Below the pieces are notes generated by a model. It did no database searches. It saw only the letters and a list, made by a program, of their open reading frames with translations, and was not told where the DNA came from. 64,000 nucleotides of DNA, taken from contig JAJDVG010000001.1 in the NCBI GenBank assembly GCA_022826245.1, positions 1-64,000 of the forward strand, read 5' to 3'. The DNA is from Gammaproteobacteria bacterium (GTDB lineage: Bacteria > Pseudomonadota > Gammaproteobacteria > Steroidobacterales > Rariloculaceae). Position numbers and translations under genes: made by a program. Shown here piece by piece: positions 10,821-18,029 of the stretch (the stretch's first letter is position 1; the number at the start of each line of letters is the position of its first letter).

Positions 10821-10865
10821 GCTACCATGCCGTCATATTTCATAGAAAAATGACGACATGGTAGC
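10821..10865. promoter_or_regulatory. 20-bp-arm palindrome spanning the start codon of the DUF4143 ATPase gene
   Basis: The left arm 10821-10840 begins GCTACCATGCCGTCAT. The right arm 10846-10865 ends ATGACGACATGGTAGC. They match at 18 of 20 positions around a 5-base centre (CATAG). The ATG at 10858 lies inside the right arm, so the palindrome may be a repressor site over the start or an mRNA hairpin that hides it. Confidence 0.7.
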
Positions 10866-12021
10866 CAACGAGACGTATCCCCGGCTGACTCGCGTCCCCG
10901 CACGGAGCTTCTTTCTGCTCGGCGTGCGCGGCGTCGGCAAGAGCACCTGGGCGCGGAGCCAGATTCCCGACGCGCCGCACATCGATCTGCTCGACGAAGG
11001 CCTCTACCAGGACTACCTCGCCGACCCGTCGTTATTCGCTGCGGATCTGCAACCCGTTGCACCGGGCGGCTGGGTGGTCGTCGACGAAATTCAGCGCCTC
11101 CCCAATCTGCTCAATGAAGTGCACAGGCACATCGAGAGTCGCGGGCTCAATTTCGCCCTCCTCGGATCGAGCGCACGCAAGCTCAAGGCGGCGGGCGTGA
11201 ACCTGCTCGCCGGCCGCGCGCTGCACAAGACGATGCATCCGCTGACGCCGAAGGAACTCGGCGACGACTTCGACCTCGATGCGGCTCTTGCGACGGGAAC
11301 CATTCCCCTGGTTCTGGCCGCCGAGGAACCGCGCGCGGTTCTCGAGAGCTACGTCCGCCTCTACCTGCGTGAGGAAATCCGGGCCGAAGGTCTGGTCAGA
11401 AACCTGCCCGGCTTCGCGCGTTTTCTACCGATCGCCGCCCTCTATCATGGCGAAACCGTGAACATTTCCGGCATCGCGCGTGACTGCGGCGTCGCACGCA
11501 CGACCGTGCAAGGCTACCTGGAGATTCTCGAAGACACCTTGCTCACGGTCCGCCTGCCGGCGTTTACGCCGCGACTGCGATCACGTGAGCGACGCCATCC
11601 GAAACTCTACTGGGTCGATCCCGGCCTGGTTCGAGCGGTCAAGAAGCTGCGGGGTCCAGTGGCGCCTGAAGAACGTGGAGCGCTCCTCGAAGGCTGGGTC
11701 CTGCACCTGCTGCGGGCGCACGGCGAGGAAAACGAACTATTCGACGAGTTGCACTATTGGGCGCCGCACCCGCCGAACCGCACCGAGGTCGACTTCCTGC
11801 TCCGACGCAATAGCGAACTGGCAGCGATCGAAGTCAAGTCCCGGCCTCGCTATCACACCGGCATGTTGCAAGGCTTGCGCGCGATAAGCGAACTCCCCGG
11901 CGTCGTCCGGCGCGTGCTCGTCTATGGTGGCAAGCGGTGCTTCAAAACCCAGGACGGTATCGACGTATGGTCCGTCGCCAAGCTACAAAGCGCGCTCGCC
12001 GAAAATACGCTGTGGCCGTGA
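10858..12021 (+). CDS. AAA_14/DUF4143 family ATPase
   Basis: A 387-residue ATPase of the widespread AAA-plus-DUF4143 family, whose cellular role is unsettled. Walker A is GVRGVGKST near residue 23, Walker B is WVVVDEIQ near residue 72, and a sensor-like LLGSSARKL follows near 100. After a helix-turn-helix-like middle (ISGIARDCGVARTTVQGYL), the C-terminal DUF4143 half has a nuclease-like core, TEVDFLLRR then AIEVKS, similar to PD-(D/E)XK folds. ATG 10858 is embedded in a palindrome, which suggests autoregulation. Such genes travel horizontally and often resemble toxin or defence modules. It starts the accessory island. Confidence 0.9.
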   Translation: MVANETYPRLTRVPARSFFLLGVRGVGKSTWARSQIPDAPHIDLLDEGLYQDYLADPSLFAADLQPVAPGGWVVVDEIQRLPNLLNEVHRHIESRGLNFALLGSSARKLKAAGVNLLAGRALHKTMHPLTPKELGDDFDLDAALATGTIPLVLAAEEPRAVLESYVRLYLREEIRAEGLVRNLPGFARFLPIAALYHGETVNISGIARDCGVARTTVQGYLEILEDTLLTVRLPAFTPRLRSRERRHPKLYWVDPGLVRAVKKLRGPVAPEERGALLEGWVLHLLRAHGEENELFDELHYWAPHPPNRTEVDFLLRRNSELAAIEVKSRPRYHTGMLQGLRAISELPGVVRRVLVYGGKRCFKTQDGIDVWSVAKLQSALAENTLWP

Positions 12022-12188
12022 GGCGTCGTGCGATGCTTGTCGTCGAACTGCCCCCGCCAGATGAGAGGAACGGCGAACGGGCCGGAGGGCGGTCGCCACT
12101 ACCCGCGTGGCCAGACCGCTTCGCATCATTTCCACTTGCGTGTGGTGCTAGGATGCAAAAGATTCCTCAAGCTTCGGAGACGCTACGC

Positions 12189-13232
12189 ATGCCTACCGGC
12201 GAGATGATTTCCACGCTAAGCCAGCATCCAGAACGGCTTCCAGAGTGGCTTGAACAGTCTCAGCCTCAGTTTGATCGCGAGATATTCTTCGGCTCCAGAA
12301 CAGTCTACTACCCAGGCCCACATAGGGACTTCGACCCCGTGAAGTTGTGCGCGAAGGCGAACGCTGCTCACACATTCTTCTACGTTGACGACGGCGTCTC
12401 ACTGGATGACATTCACAAGTTAGTACACGGAGTTAACGGATACGAGGTCGAGCACGAGGAGGAATTAACAGAGGCGGTGCTGTTACCAGCCGGATGGACA
12501 TCGCACGTCCACAAGACGGATCTGACGGCGAAGGTCAAGCAGACGATCGAAACGGACTTTAAGGGCATTTACGTGAGTCTCAAGCGAGTCGAGCACCACG
12601 ACCAGTCTCGCACCGCGAAGTGTTTGGCTCTCCTCTATGTGGTCGGAGATGGCCATATAGCGTATGACGCTTTCTACTGTCAGCAGGATGGCACACCTGT
12701 GCCGTACCTCATCGTCGTCCAGGATCACGGCGGTATGGCGTTGAACCACAGTCGGTTCGAGCGCGGAGGATTACTTGAGCGCTTGGCTTATCAGCGCTGC
12801 CGATATCCGGAATGGCTGCTCATTGGGTCCAAAGACACCATAGGCGAGAGCTACGAGCCGTGGGATGGTTACACCGACACGGGGGTTGCACCGGAACCGC
12901 AGGGCGCGGTCAAGAATCCGAGAAAGCTCTACCGCCGAGAGGAAGACTCTCCGCTTTTTTTGACAAGGCAATCTCGCCAAGTTCAGCGAAACGAGACAGG
13001 GGAATCGACTACACGTCCCACGCTAATACATGAAGTACATGACATCCTTCAAGCGCAAGGCAACCATTGGATGAGGCTGAAGGACGTAGCCGACCGTGTA
13101 AATGAGCGTGCGCGATACCAAAGCACGACCAGTTCGACCGTAACGACACGTCACATATTTGATGTCTGGTATGAGCGCAAACAGCAGTTTGAGCGAGATA
13201 AGTCGCGCATTCGATGCAAGGAAAATGGATAA
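12189..13232 (+). CDS. Uncharacterised protein with QDHG motif and C-terminal winged-helix-like region
   Basis: A 347-residue protein I cannot assign to a named family. ATG 12189 is preceded by a GGAG-containing stretch; an in-frame ATG at 12153 is the alternative. The central part (residues about 140-225) has the clearest features: LALLYVVGDGHIAYDAFYC, VVQDHGGMALNHSRF and GGLLERLAYQ, then a Trp-Gly motif (EPWDGY). The last 65 residues (HEVHDILQAQGNHWMRLKDV onward) look like a winged helix-turn-helix. Base composition is near 50% GC, well below the flanks. It lies 27 bases before the nuclease-like gene at 13260, so the two are probably one transcript. Defence or mobile-element function is inferred from context only. 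Confidence 0.75.
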   Translation: MPTGEMISTLSQHPERLPEWLEQSQPQFDREIFFGSRTVYYPGPHRDFDPVKLCAKANAAHTFFYVDDGVSLDDIHKLVHGVNGYEVEHEEELTEAVLLPAGWTSHVHKTDLTAKVKQTIETDFKGIYVSLKRVEHHDQSRTAKCLALLYVVGDGHIAYDAFYCQQDGTPVPYLIVVQDHGGMALNHSRFERGGLLERLAYQRCRYPEWLLIGSKDTIGESYEPWDGYTDTGVAPEPQGAVKNPRKLYRREEDSPLFLTRQSRQVQRNETGESTTRPTLIHEVHDILQAQGNHWMRLKDVADRVNERARYQSTTSSTVTTRHIFDVWYERKQQFERDKSRIRCKENG

Positions 13233-13259
13233 ATTGATGGTTCAGTGGTTGAGTAGAAC

Positions 13260-14264
13260 ATGAATATAGAAGGTAAGACTATCTGGCAGCACGCTGCTGG
13301 CGATCGGGACCACCGTCACGACGATATCTGTTTCGAGTGGAACGTCATCCTGTCGGGCGGGGAGAGACATTTAAAGAATGAAATGAAAGAAGGCGACATC
13401 GTGGTACTGAAACTCGGGCGTACCACTCTATTGGCGATTGGGATTTTGGGAAAGTACGAGTACTGTGCGGAATTCGACGACATCGATGGGTGGTCATTGG
13501 GGCACACGCGCAGAGTAAGTTGGCTCTGGAAGGCAGACGAACCGGAAACATACGAGGATTGGACTTTCCAAATGGGCACCACCCAGCGGCTCAACAAGCG
13601 TTCTCGAATCGTCAATGAGCGGATCAAGCCCGAGCTTGCCGGGATTGATGACTCAGTGAATTGGAACGCAATCGGCTCGCTCGATTTTTCTGAAGAAAAT
13701 GACCTTGAGGCAGAAGAAATCGCCAGCTTTCTTTTCGAACAAGGCCTGCCAAGCGACGCGATTCGCACGCTACTGGACCATCATGGTTCGTTCTCCCAGA
13801 TGGCCAAATGGTACTCAAACGATTGGAAATCGGCTTCTGAACACGAGACGGTCTGCCATCTGGTAGTTCCGCTACTCAAGGTCTTGGGCTGGACGCCCCA
13901 GAAGATCGCCCTGGAGTTTAATCGAGTCGATGTGGCGCTTTTTGCTCGGTTGCCGAGACAGGACAAGAACGTGTCGGTGGTCGTAGAAGCAAAGAAGGTC
14001 CATGGAGCGTGTTTAAGTGCGATATCGCAGGCGAGGGATTACGCGAAGAGATATCCAAACTGTTCCAGGATAATCGTTACTGATGGCCTCCGATACGGGA
14101 TCTTCACTCGGGGAGGTGAGGAATGGTCGGACGAGTCGAAACCCTATGCTTACCTAAACGTGACCCGGCCCAGAAGTTCATATCCAATTTACGGCGCCCT
14201 AAGAGGCGCGAAGGAAGCCATCTACGCGATGACTCCTGATTACATCCACGAACAAGCGGGCTAA
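13260..14264 (+). CDS. Predicted EVE-like plus PD-(D/E)XK nuclease-like protein (restriction-like)
   Basis: A 334-residue protein in two parts. The N-terminus (about 1-115: HRHDDICFEWNVIL, EGDIVVLKLGRTTLLAIG, then GWSLGHTRRVSWLW) resembles EVE/PUA-like domains that read modified bases. The C-terminal half (about 185-330) resembles the N-terminal nuclease part of type I R subunits: HLVVPLLKVLGW, the Asp of FNRVDVALF, then VVVEAKK as the E-x-K of a PD-(D/E)XK active site, and a later SQARDYAKRYP resembling motif IV. Together they suggest a nuclease that senses modified DNA. It follows the unknown gene at 12189 with a 27-base gap and shares its low GC. The domain calls are from motif reading, not from a profile search. 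Confidence 0.68.
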   Translation: MNIEGKTIWQHAAGDRDHRHDDICFEWNVILSGGERHLKNEMKEGDIVVLKLGRTTLLAIGILGKYEYCAEFDDIDGWSLGHTRRVSWLWKADEPETYEDWTFQMGTTQRLNKRSRIVNERIKPELAGIDDSVNWNAIGSLDFSEENDLEAEEIASFLFEQGLPSDAIRTLLDHHGSFSQMAKWYSNDWKSASEHETVCHLVVPLLKVLGWTPQKIALEFNRVDVALFARLPRQDKNVSVVVEAKKVHGACLSAISQARDYAKRYPNCSRIIVTDGLRYGIFTRGGEEWSDESKPYAYLNVTRPRSSYPIYGALRGAKEAIYAMTPDYIHEQAG

Positions 14265-14536
14265 AGGTCTTCGAATATCTACTGTCCGAATCGTTAGTTC
14301 TTTTTGTTGTCTTTCGTACGACTCTCTCATGGTACTGCCCCGCCTAGGGTCGATATTGTTACGCAGATTCGTTTTCGAACCACTGCGTTCTTCTGCGCAA
14401 TAACGTTTCTAACTCTAAGTCCCCGAACGCTGATGCAGTCTGCTGAAACGACAGTAAACGCCTATAGTAGTAATTCCAAAGATCTTCTCCATATTCAGCC
14501 TGGCAACGAGCTGAGAGACGCACAGACGGGAAGTCG
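14265..14536. other. AT-richer intergenic spacer of the accessory island
   Basis: These 272 bases lie between the 3' ends of two convergent genes. They are visibly poorer in GC than the flanks (runs such as tagttctttttgttgtctt). A short minus-strand frame (14359-14589) overlaps the next gene; it has a protein-like composition in its second half but no start signal, and I do not call it. Confidence 0.5.
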
Positions 14537-15592
14537 CTACTCCTGCTCTGGCGCGTCAGAAACCAAGTGTTCGTGCTCGCGCCAAGCAACTTCTACGTGC
14601 CGTACAAGCTCGACTAAACGGGCCTTGTTCTTGTGCCAGCTTTCTTCGTCAAGGCGGTAATACCATTGGTTCGGAGCACGTCGCGTGGCGGGTGCGTTCG
14701 GCGGTTTCTCGACTTCGAACTGAATTGCATTCTTGAGCTTTTCGAAGCGCTCGCGACAAAGGTCTACAGCGGCCGGATAGAACGTGATGCGAATCTTCCC
14801 GGACTCGTCAATCGCCACAGAATGCGACCCCCGAACACGAACGTCGTCCGGCAGCGTGATCGTCCGCTGCAGATAGGTAATACCGGACTTCGTAAAGTAT
14901 GTTCGGATACTGTAGTTCAGCGACGTTGTCGCATCCTGCCAGATTTCCGCCACACCATACTCGCCGGCTTTCCTAATCAAGTCTCTAGCGCTTGGCCGAA
15001 CGCGTGGGGACGCATGGGGATCCTCGGCGGTCCTTACCTGCCTGGCCAATAGCATGCTATCGCCGTGCATATACCCATGGAAGGTCAACAGACTGATTTC
15101 GATGCCCTTGTCTGCCAGATAGGCCACCATTCGGTAGGCGCTCATATCCAGCCCCAGGCCAACCAATACCATCTTGGCGGGCCGTAGGGCGTCTCCCGCC
15201 TGGCTTGCGTACCATTCCTCAAAGTCTGTGAATTTTCTGATCCCGTGTCGGCCGGATCGCTCGGCGATCAGGGCTCCGAGTTCCGACTCCGTCAGGGTCT
15301 CCACGTACGTGCAGTAGTCCAGCACCTGTGCCACGGCTTCCCGCGTGAGCTTTTCGCGCTTGAGTTCGAACACAGTTAGTCGACCTTCGTCATCGATCCC
15401 GAGAAGGTCGATTTGACCAGTACCGACCGGAACCTGTCTGCCGACCAGTGTGAGCCCGGCCATTAGCAGGTTGGGATTCTCCACGACAATGTCTTCCAGC
15501 ATCTTTTCCGTTTCAATACGGTCGGCTGGATCGAGCTTGCTTCCGGCCCGAGACTCTCGGTCGATTTTCCAGATTCCGATATCAGTCTTCAT
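14537..15592 (-). CDS. NucS/DUF91-like RecB-family nuclease
   Basis: A 351-residue protein with the DUF91/NucS-type nuclease core at its N-terminus: ETEKMLEDIVVENPNLL, then GQIDLLGID with the catalytic Asp, VFELKRE with the E-x-K, and AVAQVLDYCTYV with a Q-x3-Y motif typical of RecB-like nucleases (residues about 25-105). The remaining 240 residues are not recognised; the pattern YPAAVDLCRERFEKLKNAI suggests a helical DNA- or partner-binding tail. ATG 15592 is chosen over a further-upstream start because it gives the family's usual beginning. It is convergent with the restriction-like gene and closes the accessory island. A role in repair or defence is inferred. Confidence 0.78.
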   Translation of the reverse strand: MKTDIGIWKIDRESRAGSKLDPADRIETEKMLEDIVVENPNLLMAGLTLVGRQVPVGTGQIDLLGIDDEGRLTVFELKREKLTREAVAQVLDYCTYVETLTESELGALIAERSGRHGIRKFTDFEEWYASQAGDALRPAKMVLVGLGLDMSAYRMVAYLADKGIEISLLTFHGYMHGDSMLLARQVRTAEDPHASPRVRPSARDLIRKAGEYGVAEIWQDATTSLNYSIRTYFTKSGITYLQRTITLPDDVRVRGSHSVAIDESGKIRITFYPAAVDLCRERFEKLKNAIQFEVEKPPNAPATRRAPNQWYYRLDEESWHKNKARLVELVRHVEVAWREHEHLVSDAPEQE

Positions 15593-15677
15593 TTGATCGT
15601 CTCGACATTTCACAATCGACACAGCTCAGACAGTGGTCGTCCACGATCCGATGCAGCAGGATTTGTGATACACACAT

Positions 15678-16853
15678 CTACACCGCGCGCAAGGCCGTGG
15701 CGACGGGCAGCCGCGCCGCACGAATGGCAGGCAACAGGGCGCCGAGAAGACCGACCGCGCAGGCCCAGACGACGCCTTGCGCGACGAGCCCGGGGCTAAC
15801 CTCCAGACGAAAGACGATCGAGGCGTTCACGCTGCCCATGTTGATGGTCGTGCCGTTGAACAGCGCCCAGGCAACCGCCGCGCCGACGAAGGCGCCCACT
15901 ACGGCCAGCAGCAACGCTTCGCAGAGTACCGAAACGACGATGCCGCCCTGGCCGAAGCCGATCGCCCTCAAGGTGGCGATCTCGACGCTTCGACTGCTCA
16001 CCGCCTGATACATCGTGTTGAGTGCGGCAAACAGCGCGCCCACGGCCATGATTCCGGCGACGAAGTTCGTCACGACGCCGATGACATCGTTGATGAAGGA
16101 GGCCTGGCGGCTGTAGTACTCGGTCTCGCGCAGCACATCGACGGTCAGTGCCGGGTTCGTCGTCAACGCGTCGCGAAACTCATCGAAGCTGTCCTCGGAC
16201 TCGAGCATCACGGTCACGCTGTTTCTCGGCGCACCCTGATAGGCCGACAACAACGTTTCGACATCGGTCAGCATGCCGGACTCGAGCGCATCGCCGCTCG
16301 TGAACACGCCGACGACGGTCCAGTCGCTGCCGCGCAGGGACACGATGTCGCCGATGTTCACGCCCGCAAACTCCTCCAGCGCGCTGGCACCGACGATGAG
16401 CTCCCGAACTCCGCGCTCAAACATGCGTCCGGCGACGATCTCGATCTCCGGACGCACGTCGAACACGGCAGCTCCCGTGCCGCGCAGGGTCATGGAAGCC
16501 AGCGTACCGTCGATCCTTTCGAGATTGACTCCCGTCACCATGTTGATGGTGGCCGCGACATAGCCTTCGGCGGTTCTGGCGATGCCCGGCGCGTCGACGA
16601 TCGTCAGCGCCGCATCGACCGACAGCGCGCTTGAGACCTCCGTATCCGCACCGTCTCGCAACACGATCGCCCGATCGACCCGCCCGGTGGCGAGCAGCGT
16701 ATCGGTCAGGCTCGTCGAGATACCGAGCACCGAGACGAGCACGCCGACGACTCCGGCGATTCCGACGACGACGACACAGGAACTGCCGAGGCGCTGCGGA
16801 ATGTTGCGCAGGTTCATCGCCGTAACCGCGACGATTTGGGTGAGCGCGATCAT
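15678..16853 (-). CDS. ABC exporter permease, FtsX/MacB-like (second permease)
   Basis: A 391-residue inner-membrane permease. One N-terminal membrane segment (VVVVGIAGVVGVLVSVLG) is followed by a large periplasmic domain (about 45-265). Three C-terminal membrane helices follow in an FtsX domain (VVTNFVAGIMAVGALFAALNT split across 265-290; IVVSVLCEALLLAVVGAFVGAA). The sequence TMYQAVSSRSVEIATLRAIG is the usual FtsX signature. It ends the operon MFP-ATPase-permease-permease and starts 16 bases after the previous permease stop. Unlike classical MacB, the ATPase is a separate protein. The substrate is unknown; lipoprotein, peptide or drug export is typical of the family. Confidence 0.88.
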   Translation of the reverse strand: MIALTQIVAVTAMNLRNIPQRLGSSCVVVVGIAGVVGVLVSVLGISTSLTDTLLATGRVDRAIVLRDGADTEVSSALSVDAALTIVDAPGIARTAEGYVAATINMVTGVNLERIDGTLASMTLRGTGAAVFDVRPEIEIVAGRMFERGVRELIVGASALEEFAGVNIGDIVSLRGSDWTVVGVFTSGDALESGMLTDVETLLSAYQGAPRNSVTVMLESEDSFDEFRDALTTNPALTVDVLRETEYYSRQASFINDVIGVVTNFVAGIMAVGALFAALNTMYQAVSSRSVEIATLRAIGFGQGGIVVSVLCEALLLAVVGAFVGAAVAWALFNGTTINMGSVNASIVFRLEVSPGLVAQGVVWACAVGLLGALLPAIRAARLPVATALRAV

Positions 16854-16868
16854 GTGAGCGGCCGGGAG

Positions 16869-18029
16869 CTAGTGTCGCCCGGCGAGCGCGTCGACCACAT
16901 TGAGACGCTGCGCGAGCCAGGCCGGCGGAAGCGCGCTGACCAGGGCAAGCAGCGCGCCGATCGCCATGCCGAGCGCGATGACGCTCGGCGGCAGCGGCAG
17001 CGCGCCGATGTTGAGGCTGCGGTAGATTTCGGGGTAAACGGTCGCAGCGATCACCATTGCGATCGCCGCAGCCGTTACGCACAGCAACAGCGATTCCGTC
17101 ACCACGAGGCTTACGATCGTCGCGTTGCCGAAACCGTAGGTCTTGAGCACCGCAAGTTCGGGAATGCGCTCGCGTACCGACTGCCACATCGTGTTGCCGG
17201 TCAGGAACAGCAGCGTAAAGAACACGGCGCCGATGATGGCGTTGACGAAGAAGTTGATGTCCCCGACCCGCCCGATCTGGGCTCTGACCCAGTCCGCCTC
17301 GTTGAGCGTCTGCGTCTCGAAGCTCGAATTCAGGAACAGGGCGTCGATGCGCTCGGAAATCCCGGCGGCGCGTTCCGGATCAAGGATTTCCACGAAGTAG
17401 AGAAGCACCATGCCGGCGCCCCTGACGCGCGCCTCGTCGATGTACTCGTAGTGGACGTACATGTCCCGCGCTTCCCAGTCGCTGAATTCCTCCGACAGTT
17501 CGTAGATCCCGACGATGTCGAAATCCCAGGCGTCCATGCCGTCGGTGCGGGCCACGAGATTCGACCCGAGCGTGACCCGGTCGCCGATGGTCCAGCCGCG
17601 CGCTTCGGCAAGATCGCGTCCGACAAGCGTCCCGGTACGGGTACGCAACATCGTCTCGACCTGCTCCTCGGACACGATGAACTCCGGCGTCACATCGAGA
17701 AAGCGCTCGATTTCGACGGCACCGACCTGTATGCCGTTGCCCGGATCCTGGTAGTAGGCCGGAAGCAGACTGTAATACGCGACTCCATTGACTCCAGGCA
17801 CCGATTCGATCTGCGAAAGATGCGCGACGGGAAGGCCCTCCATGAGATTCGCGCGGTTCTGAACGCGCAGCCGCGTTTCGCTCAGGCGATCGATGACGTC
17901 GTCAAATGTCGAGGTCACCCCGTACAACGTGCCGTAGAGCATGAAGGCGACGATGATCGAGAGCAGCGTCAGGATCGTGCGCATCGGTTTGCGCCACAAT
18001 CCCGCCCAGACCAGGCAGAAGAACTTCAC
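16869..18029 (-). CDS. ABC exporter permease, FtsX/MacB-like (first permease)
   Basis: A 386-residue FtsX-type permease. Its GTG start overlaps the ATPase stop in a GTGA, so the two are translationally coupled. One membrane helix near the N-terminus (ILTLLSIIVAFMLYGTLYG) precedes a periplasmic domain of about 220 residues. Three helices and the signature MWQSVRERIPELAVLKTYG follow. It would pair with the 15678 permease as a heterodimer, since both are of similar length and the operon has a single ATPase. Substrate unknown. Confidence 0.88.
   Translation of the reverse strand: MKFFCLVWAGLWRKPMRTILTLLSIIVAFMLYGTLYGVTSTFDDVIDRLSETRLRVQNRANLMEGLPVAHLSQIESVPGVNGVAYYSLLPAYYQDPGNGIQVGAVEIERFLDVTPEFIVSEEQVETMLRTRTGTLVGRDLAEARGWTIGDRVTLGSNLVARTDGMDAWDFDIVGIYELSEEFSDWEARDMYVHYEYIDEARVRGAGMVLLYFVEILDPERAAGISERIDALFLNSSFETQTLNEADWVRAQIGRVGDINFFVNAIIGAVFFTLLFLTGNTMWQSVRERIPELAVLKTYGFGNATIVSLVVTESLLLCVTAAAIAMVIAATVYPEIYRSLNIGALPLPPSVIALGMAIGALLALVSALPPAWLAQRLNVVDALAGRH

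Follow-up and report, generated by a model that had tools for sequence, protein, structure and literature searches.

A predicted EVE/YTH-PD-(D/E)XK nuclease and a neighboring gene of a rare, unnamed family in an accessory block of a gammaproteobacterial genome

Two open reading frames, gene A (12189-13232, 347 aa) and gene B (13260-14264, 334 aa), follow one another on the plus strand of the 64,000-nucleotide stretch of gammaproteobacterial DNA analyzed here (the window). They are separated by 27 bases and share a low GC content (0.541 and 0.522, respectively, versus 0.639 for the window). The frame of gene A stays open upstream to 11937, but the ATG at 12189 agrees with the start found in its relatives. 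Gene B encodes an EVE/YTH-type domain (residues 1-138; 13260-13673, plus strand) and a PD-(D/E)XK nuclease domain (residues 189-334; 13824-14261, plus strand). The pair is preceded by a gene for a DUF4143 AAA ATPase (10858-12021, plus strand, E=1.6e-32), which matches the PADLOC candidate PDC-S01, and followed by a NucS_C/DUF91-type nuclease gene (14537-15622, minus strand, E=2.1e-11), convergent with gene B and matching the PADLOC candidate PDC-S11; an ABC transporter is encoded at 15678-18029. The GC content of the NucS-type gene (0.561) is low like that of genes A and B, that of the DUF4143 gene (0.640) is not, and values of 0.65-0.68 apply to the GMC oxidoreductase and ABC genes that flank the block. 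The original prediction, which proposed that the two genes form a defense module directed at modified DNA, had described the spacing, strand, shared base composition and both neighbors of the pair, and all of these were confirmed.

The A/B block occupies an accessory location. In two other genomes of the same genus the ABC transporter is retained with 75-82% identity and no similarity to the A/B block was found, and the block is therefore regarded as accessory. A PQQ-dehydrogenase-like gene directly adjoins the transporter in the first of these genomes and different genes take up the space beside it in the second. In one relative the gene for the GMC oxidoreductase is found at a distance of about 140 kb. 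The DUF4143 ATPase gene falls within the same accessory block, and a functional tie between it and either gene A or gene B is without support. The accessory gene run at 10858-15622 brings together the PDC-S01 and PDC-S11 candidates and a relative of PDC-S02.

The structure of the gene B protein was predicted from an alignment of 35 relatives with a mean pLDDT of 91.9 and a pTM of 0.88. When this model was compared with solved structures, residues 189-334 matched a fragment of the type I restriction subunit HsdR (3h1t) with Z 11.9 and rmsd 2.7 over 113 residues at 26% identity, followed by the nuclease domains of BpuSI and DrdV (Z 9.1). Residues 1-138 matched the EVE proteins 1wmm and 2p5d and the EVE-HNH restriction enzyme VcaM4I (6yex), each with Z 10.1, as well as YTH domains that read m6A (Z up to 9.6, YTHDC1). 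The EVE and YTH scores are tied, so that the fold alone would suit a reader of 5mC/5hmC, of m6A or of another base; the Foldseek E-values for the model were modest (best 1.2e-3). Among family models, gene B gave a single weak match, to HSDR_N (residues 220-265, E=0.0017), and the same scan detected no AAA domain. Matches by sequence to calcium-channel subunits in the PDB were dismissed as chance. The model thus agrees with the N-terminal EVE/PUA-like and C-terminal restriction-type halves anticipated earlier, and it indicates that gene B is an EVE/YTH-type domain fused to an HsdR-type PD-(D/E)XK nuclease.

The catalytic residues are conserved among the relatives of gene B. The glutamate and lysine of the E-x-K motif (E243 and K245) are present in 59/59 sequences that cover them, variability of this lysine having been named in the original prediction as a finding that would refute it; D224 occurs in 57/58 and Q257 in 58/59 covering sequences, E194 and E196 in 59/61, and together with E219 these residues make up the conserved set of the nuclease domain. 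In the EVE part, W9, G14, D74 and W78 are invariant among covering sequences. One loop of this domain is altered in the window: the family carries R18 in 54 of 56 and Y20 in 52 of 56 sequences, and both positions are histidine (R18H, Y20H) in the window protein and in its nearest relative (L013, 8001-9092), with a third sequence (L033) showing histidine at position 20 only. Between residues 33 and 34 the window protein is also shorter than its close relatives. The pocket may be altered through these substitutions, and the changed loop offers a specific lead on which base is read by gene B. Such changes in a near-invariant loop, along with the shortened stretch, would also be expected if gene B had lost or changed its reading of modified bases and served either as a general nuclease or as an RNA-directed effector. 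This reading is considered very improbable: L013 has both histidine changes at 55% identity and with an intact frame, which argues for an inherited change under selection, and a short loop is likewise found in the REHET subfamily.

Proteins joining an EVE domain to a PD-(D/E)XK nuclease have been classified as predicted type IV restriction endonucleases (Bell et al., 2020, PMC7641849). Gene B shows the same two-domain design within a single protein and in defense settings, the published class being set by architecture, and it is an addition to this already described kind. The earlier statement that no described system contains the pair holds for A and B together; for gene B alone, the design had been described (PMC7641849). 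No assayed member of the gene B subfamily was found in the literature. VcaM4I, one of the EVE-HNH modification-dependent endonucleases, is a single protein that flips 5mC and 5hmC and restricts T4gt (PMC7897488); gene B resembles it in its N-terminal fold and differs in the nuclease half, which is HNH in VcaM4I and PD-(D/E)XK in gene B. Fusions of EVE with McrB have been described as the commonest use of the EVE domain in defense (PMC7641849), and residues 38-117 of gene B are 43-47% identical to a segment of McrB-like AAA proteins from three other genomes (L006, L007 and L008), in which the EVE-like segment sits between Walker A and Walker B. This similarity gives an independent hint of the EVE-type N-terminus of gene B. 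In contrast to McrBC and EVE-McrB systems, gene B lacks an AAA/GTPase domain, and no McrC was present among the window proteins scanned. A comparable distinction applies to HsdR, which is approached in the structure and, weakly, in the sequence of the nuclease half: at 334 aa, gene B has no helicase/translocase part, and neither hsdM nor hsdS was found among the window proteins scanned. Finally, 25 of 36 gene B relatives match a PDC-S02 model (best 5e-9) and gene B itself does so only at 2e-4 and over residues 37-91, all of these matches being partial. No published function for PDC-S02 was found, and the papers naming it are, by their titles, surveys of genomes or defense systems.

Genomes of 84,980 species were scanned, and gene B relatives were found at 57 loci, scattered over Pseudomonadota (including Gammaproteobacteria), Acidobacteria, Planctomycetota, Bacteroidota, Clostridiales, archaea and other groups. 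The neighbors vary and no partner is common to more than three loci. Several of the loci are defense loci, and relatives lie near GmrSD_N genes, PglX/Eco57I-type methylases or a BrxL ATPase; L013 stands alone between a P450-like gene and an ATPase gene; and gene B occurs without gene A on a prophage-like contig (L010) and on a Cupriavidus replicon (L004) as well. These settings fit a mobile single-gene defense element. At three loci (L026, L049 and L054) gene B lies inside a type I restriction-modification operon directly before hsdR, with gaps of 33, 3 and 3 bases, an arrangement that, together with its HsdR-like nuclease half, would suit an accessory subunit serving type I restriction systems in specificity or as an effector. 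As a general account of gene B this seems distinctly unlikely, since most relatives are located elsewhere (only 3 of the 57 loci have this placement) and the four proteins of the window block that were scanned include no type I subunit; gene B may nevertheless act with type I enzymes in those species where it directly precedes hsdR.

Gene A has a different distribution. Its core (about residues 1-262, with the motifs SRTVYYPG, AHTFFYVD and QDHG) gave no match of any weight to Pfam, NCBIfam, PADLOC or PHROGs models, in keeping with its earlier description as unassigned; the corresponding part of its relatives had no significant match in the same libraries, and a search of solved structures with the gene A profile found nothing. 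A second copy with 28% identity is present on contig 7 of the window's own genome (L009). Besides the window copy, seven clear members were recognized, namely the contig 7 copy and six recovered by profile searches of sampled phyla: 3 among 199 genomes of the phylum of G565, 1 among 198 of that of G562 and 2 among 199 of that of G549. None was convincing among 201 genomes of the phylum of G576, and in the window's own phylum none was found beyond the window's genome among 398. Weak matches in G755, G960, G1267 and G1374 were left out of the count. No relatives were found in plasmids, phages or viral contigs; the viral scans used exact short patterns and this negative is therefore weak evidence.

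The genes that surround gene A suggest a link to defense. In the contig 7 copy (L009, 8613-18678) it follows a WYL regulator and, directly and on the same strand, a GIY-YIG-like gene whose match lies under the cut-off of Pfam (E=6.6e-4), and it is followed by DUF2779 proteins and by a RES-domain toxin with an adjoining HTH gene. At L089 (1677-16001, G1146) gene A comes after a UvrD/PDDEXK_1 helicase-nuclease of an AddAB-like pair; a pentapeptide-repeat gene overlaps its end and precedes DruE- and DpdE-like helicases. The gene before it at L096 is a DUF4268 gene that weakly matches NucS_C, and at L095 it adjoins a WYL gene. At L087 a WYL gene precedes it and a metallo-beta-lactamase/RMMBL gene lies two genes further along; at L088 it lies between a phosphatase-like gene and an unassigned one. 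In G703 (L086, 806-2707) a caspase domain (Peptidase_C14, E=1.1e-22) precedes the gene A domain in a single frame of 634 aa. The fused gene adjoins two more genes for caspase-domain proteins.

The proposal that A and B form a conserved two-gene module was not supported, as no co-inheritance was observed. Gene A was absent from the vicinity of gene B at all 57 loci (0/57 by profile, single-sequence and tblastn searches of flanks of up to 8 kb, some contigs being short), including that of the closest relative L013, and from the 49 gene B carrier genomes that were searched whole (0/49 with the gene A core profile); conversely, no gene B relative accompanies gene A at any other gene A locus. With the core profile, the window copy and the contig 7 copy were both recovered, as were distant members at 1e-26 to 1e-29, so that the profile works as a test. 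It might still be argued that A and B do belong together as a system of two genes and that its further carriers are to be sought beyond the collections searched, with gene A as regulator, sensor or inhibitor of gene B and related A-type proteins doing the same for other nucleases. Such a system would account for the short gap, common strand and matching low GC of the pair and for the positions of gene A after the GIY-YIG-like gene on contig 7, the UvrD helicase with PDDEXK_1 at L089 and the DUF4268 gene at L096. Given that each gene is found without the other at every other locus, that several of the nuclease neighbors of gene A are weakly assigned and that defense islands are rich in nucleases anyway, we regard it as quite unlikely.

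The best reading of the locus is an accessory defense island in which a solo modification-dependent nuclease stands beside an unrelated, defense-associated gene A. More precisely, gene B probably is (at an estimated probability of about 0.7) a stand-alone, type IV-like restriction nuclease, and gene A a separate accessory gene that came to lie upstream by chance. Restriction of modified DNA, as put forward in the original prediction, is thus well supported for gene B on its own and unsupported, for want of co-occurrence, as the activity of a two-gene module. Of the three outcomes that the original prediction had named as refuting it, two (an N-terminus without the EVE/PUA fold and a variable E-x-K lysine) did not occur, and the third (genes A and B not found together elsewhere) did. 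In the mechanism proposed, the EVE/YTH-type domain would read incoming DNA by flipping out a modified base and holding it, and cleavage close by would follow in the HsdR-type PD-(D/E)XK domain with the help of a divalent metal; the enzyme includes neither a methyltransferase nor an ATP-driven translocase. Gene B would move from genome to genome on its own and arrive in different defense loci. Flipping and cutting, an antiphage role and a dependence on modified bases are what we infer, next to the two folds, the conservation of catalytic residues, the lack of co-inheritance with gene A and the accessory location documented above. EVE/YTH domains can bind RNA too, which counts against a reading of gene B in terms of DNA only. 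With gene B, the predicted modification-dependent restriction enzymes gain a well-defined subfamily of single genes that is widely scattered, and it yields a sharp prediction as to which modified base is recognized and what the R18H/Y20H change does.

For gene A, the evidence describes a rare, unnamed family that is associated with defense by its neighbors and separate from gene B. Its recurring company of WYL proteins, predicted nucleases and one caspase, several of the nuclease assignments being weak, suggests that it is part of defense systems, possibly as a sensor or switch. A bolder version would make it an undescribed defense-associated domain to which interchangeable effectors (varying nucleases and, once, a fused caspase) answer as their sensor, switch or inhibitor, and which controls gene B in the window; we hold this to be a tentative and rather unlikely proposal. 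If the defense link is true, gene A would be a candidate new regulatory or sensing part from a family without an assigned fold, whose members accompany varied defense genes and in one case share a frame with a caspase, and naming it a new defense component would take a structure and assays.

At the level of sequence, the eight gene A members share V39, Y41, D47, D67, G84, R133, G182 and F190 as invariant residues, and QDHG is present in five of the eight. The window protein continues beyond the core in a tail of some 80 aa (about residues 265-347), the putative winged-helix-like end of the original prediction, which had no Pfam match and is missing from the other members with a complete C-terminus, the L096 protein being cut by a contig end. 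A structural model built from a two-row alignment had a pLDDT of 33 overall and about 50-60 in the tail, too low for use. A possible methyltransferase-like Rossmann core was considered for gene A from its sequence only, as might be suggested by a YYPGSG stretch followed by YVD about 22 residues on.
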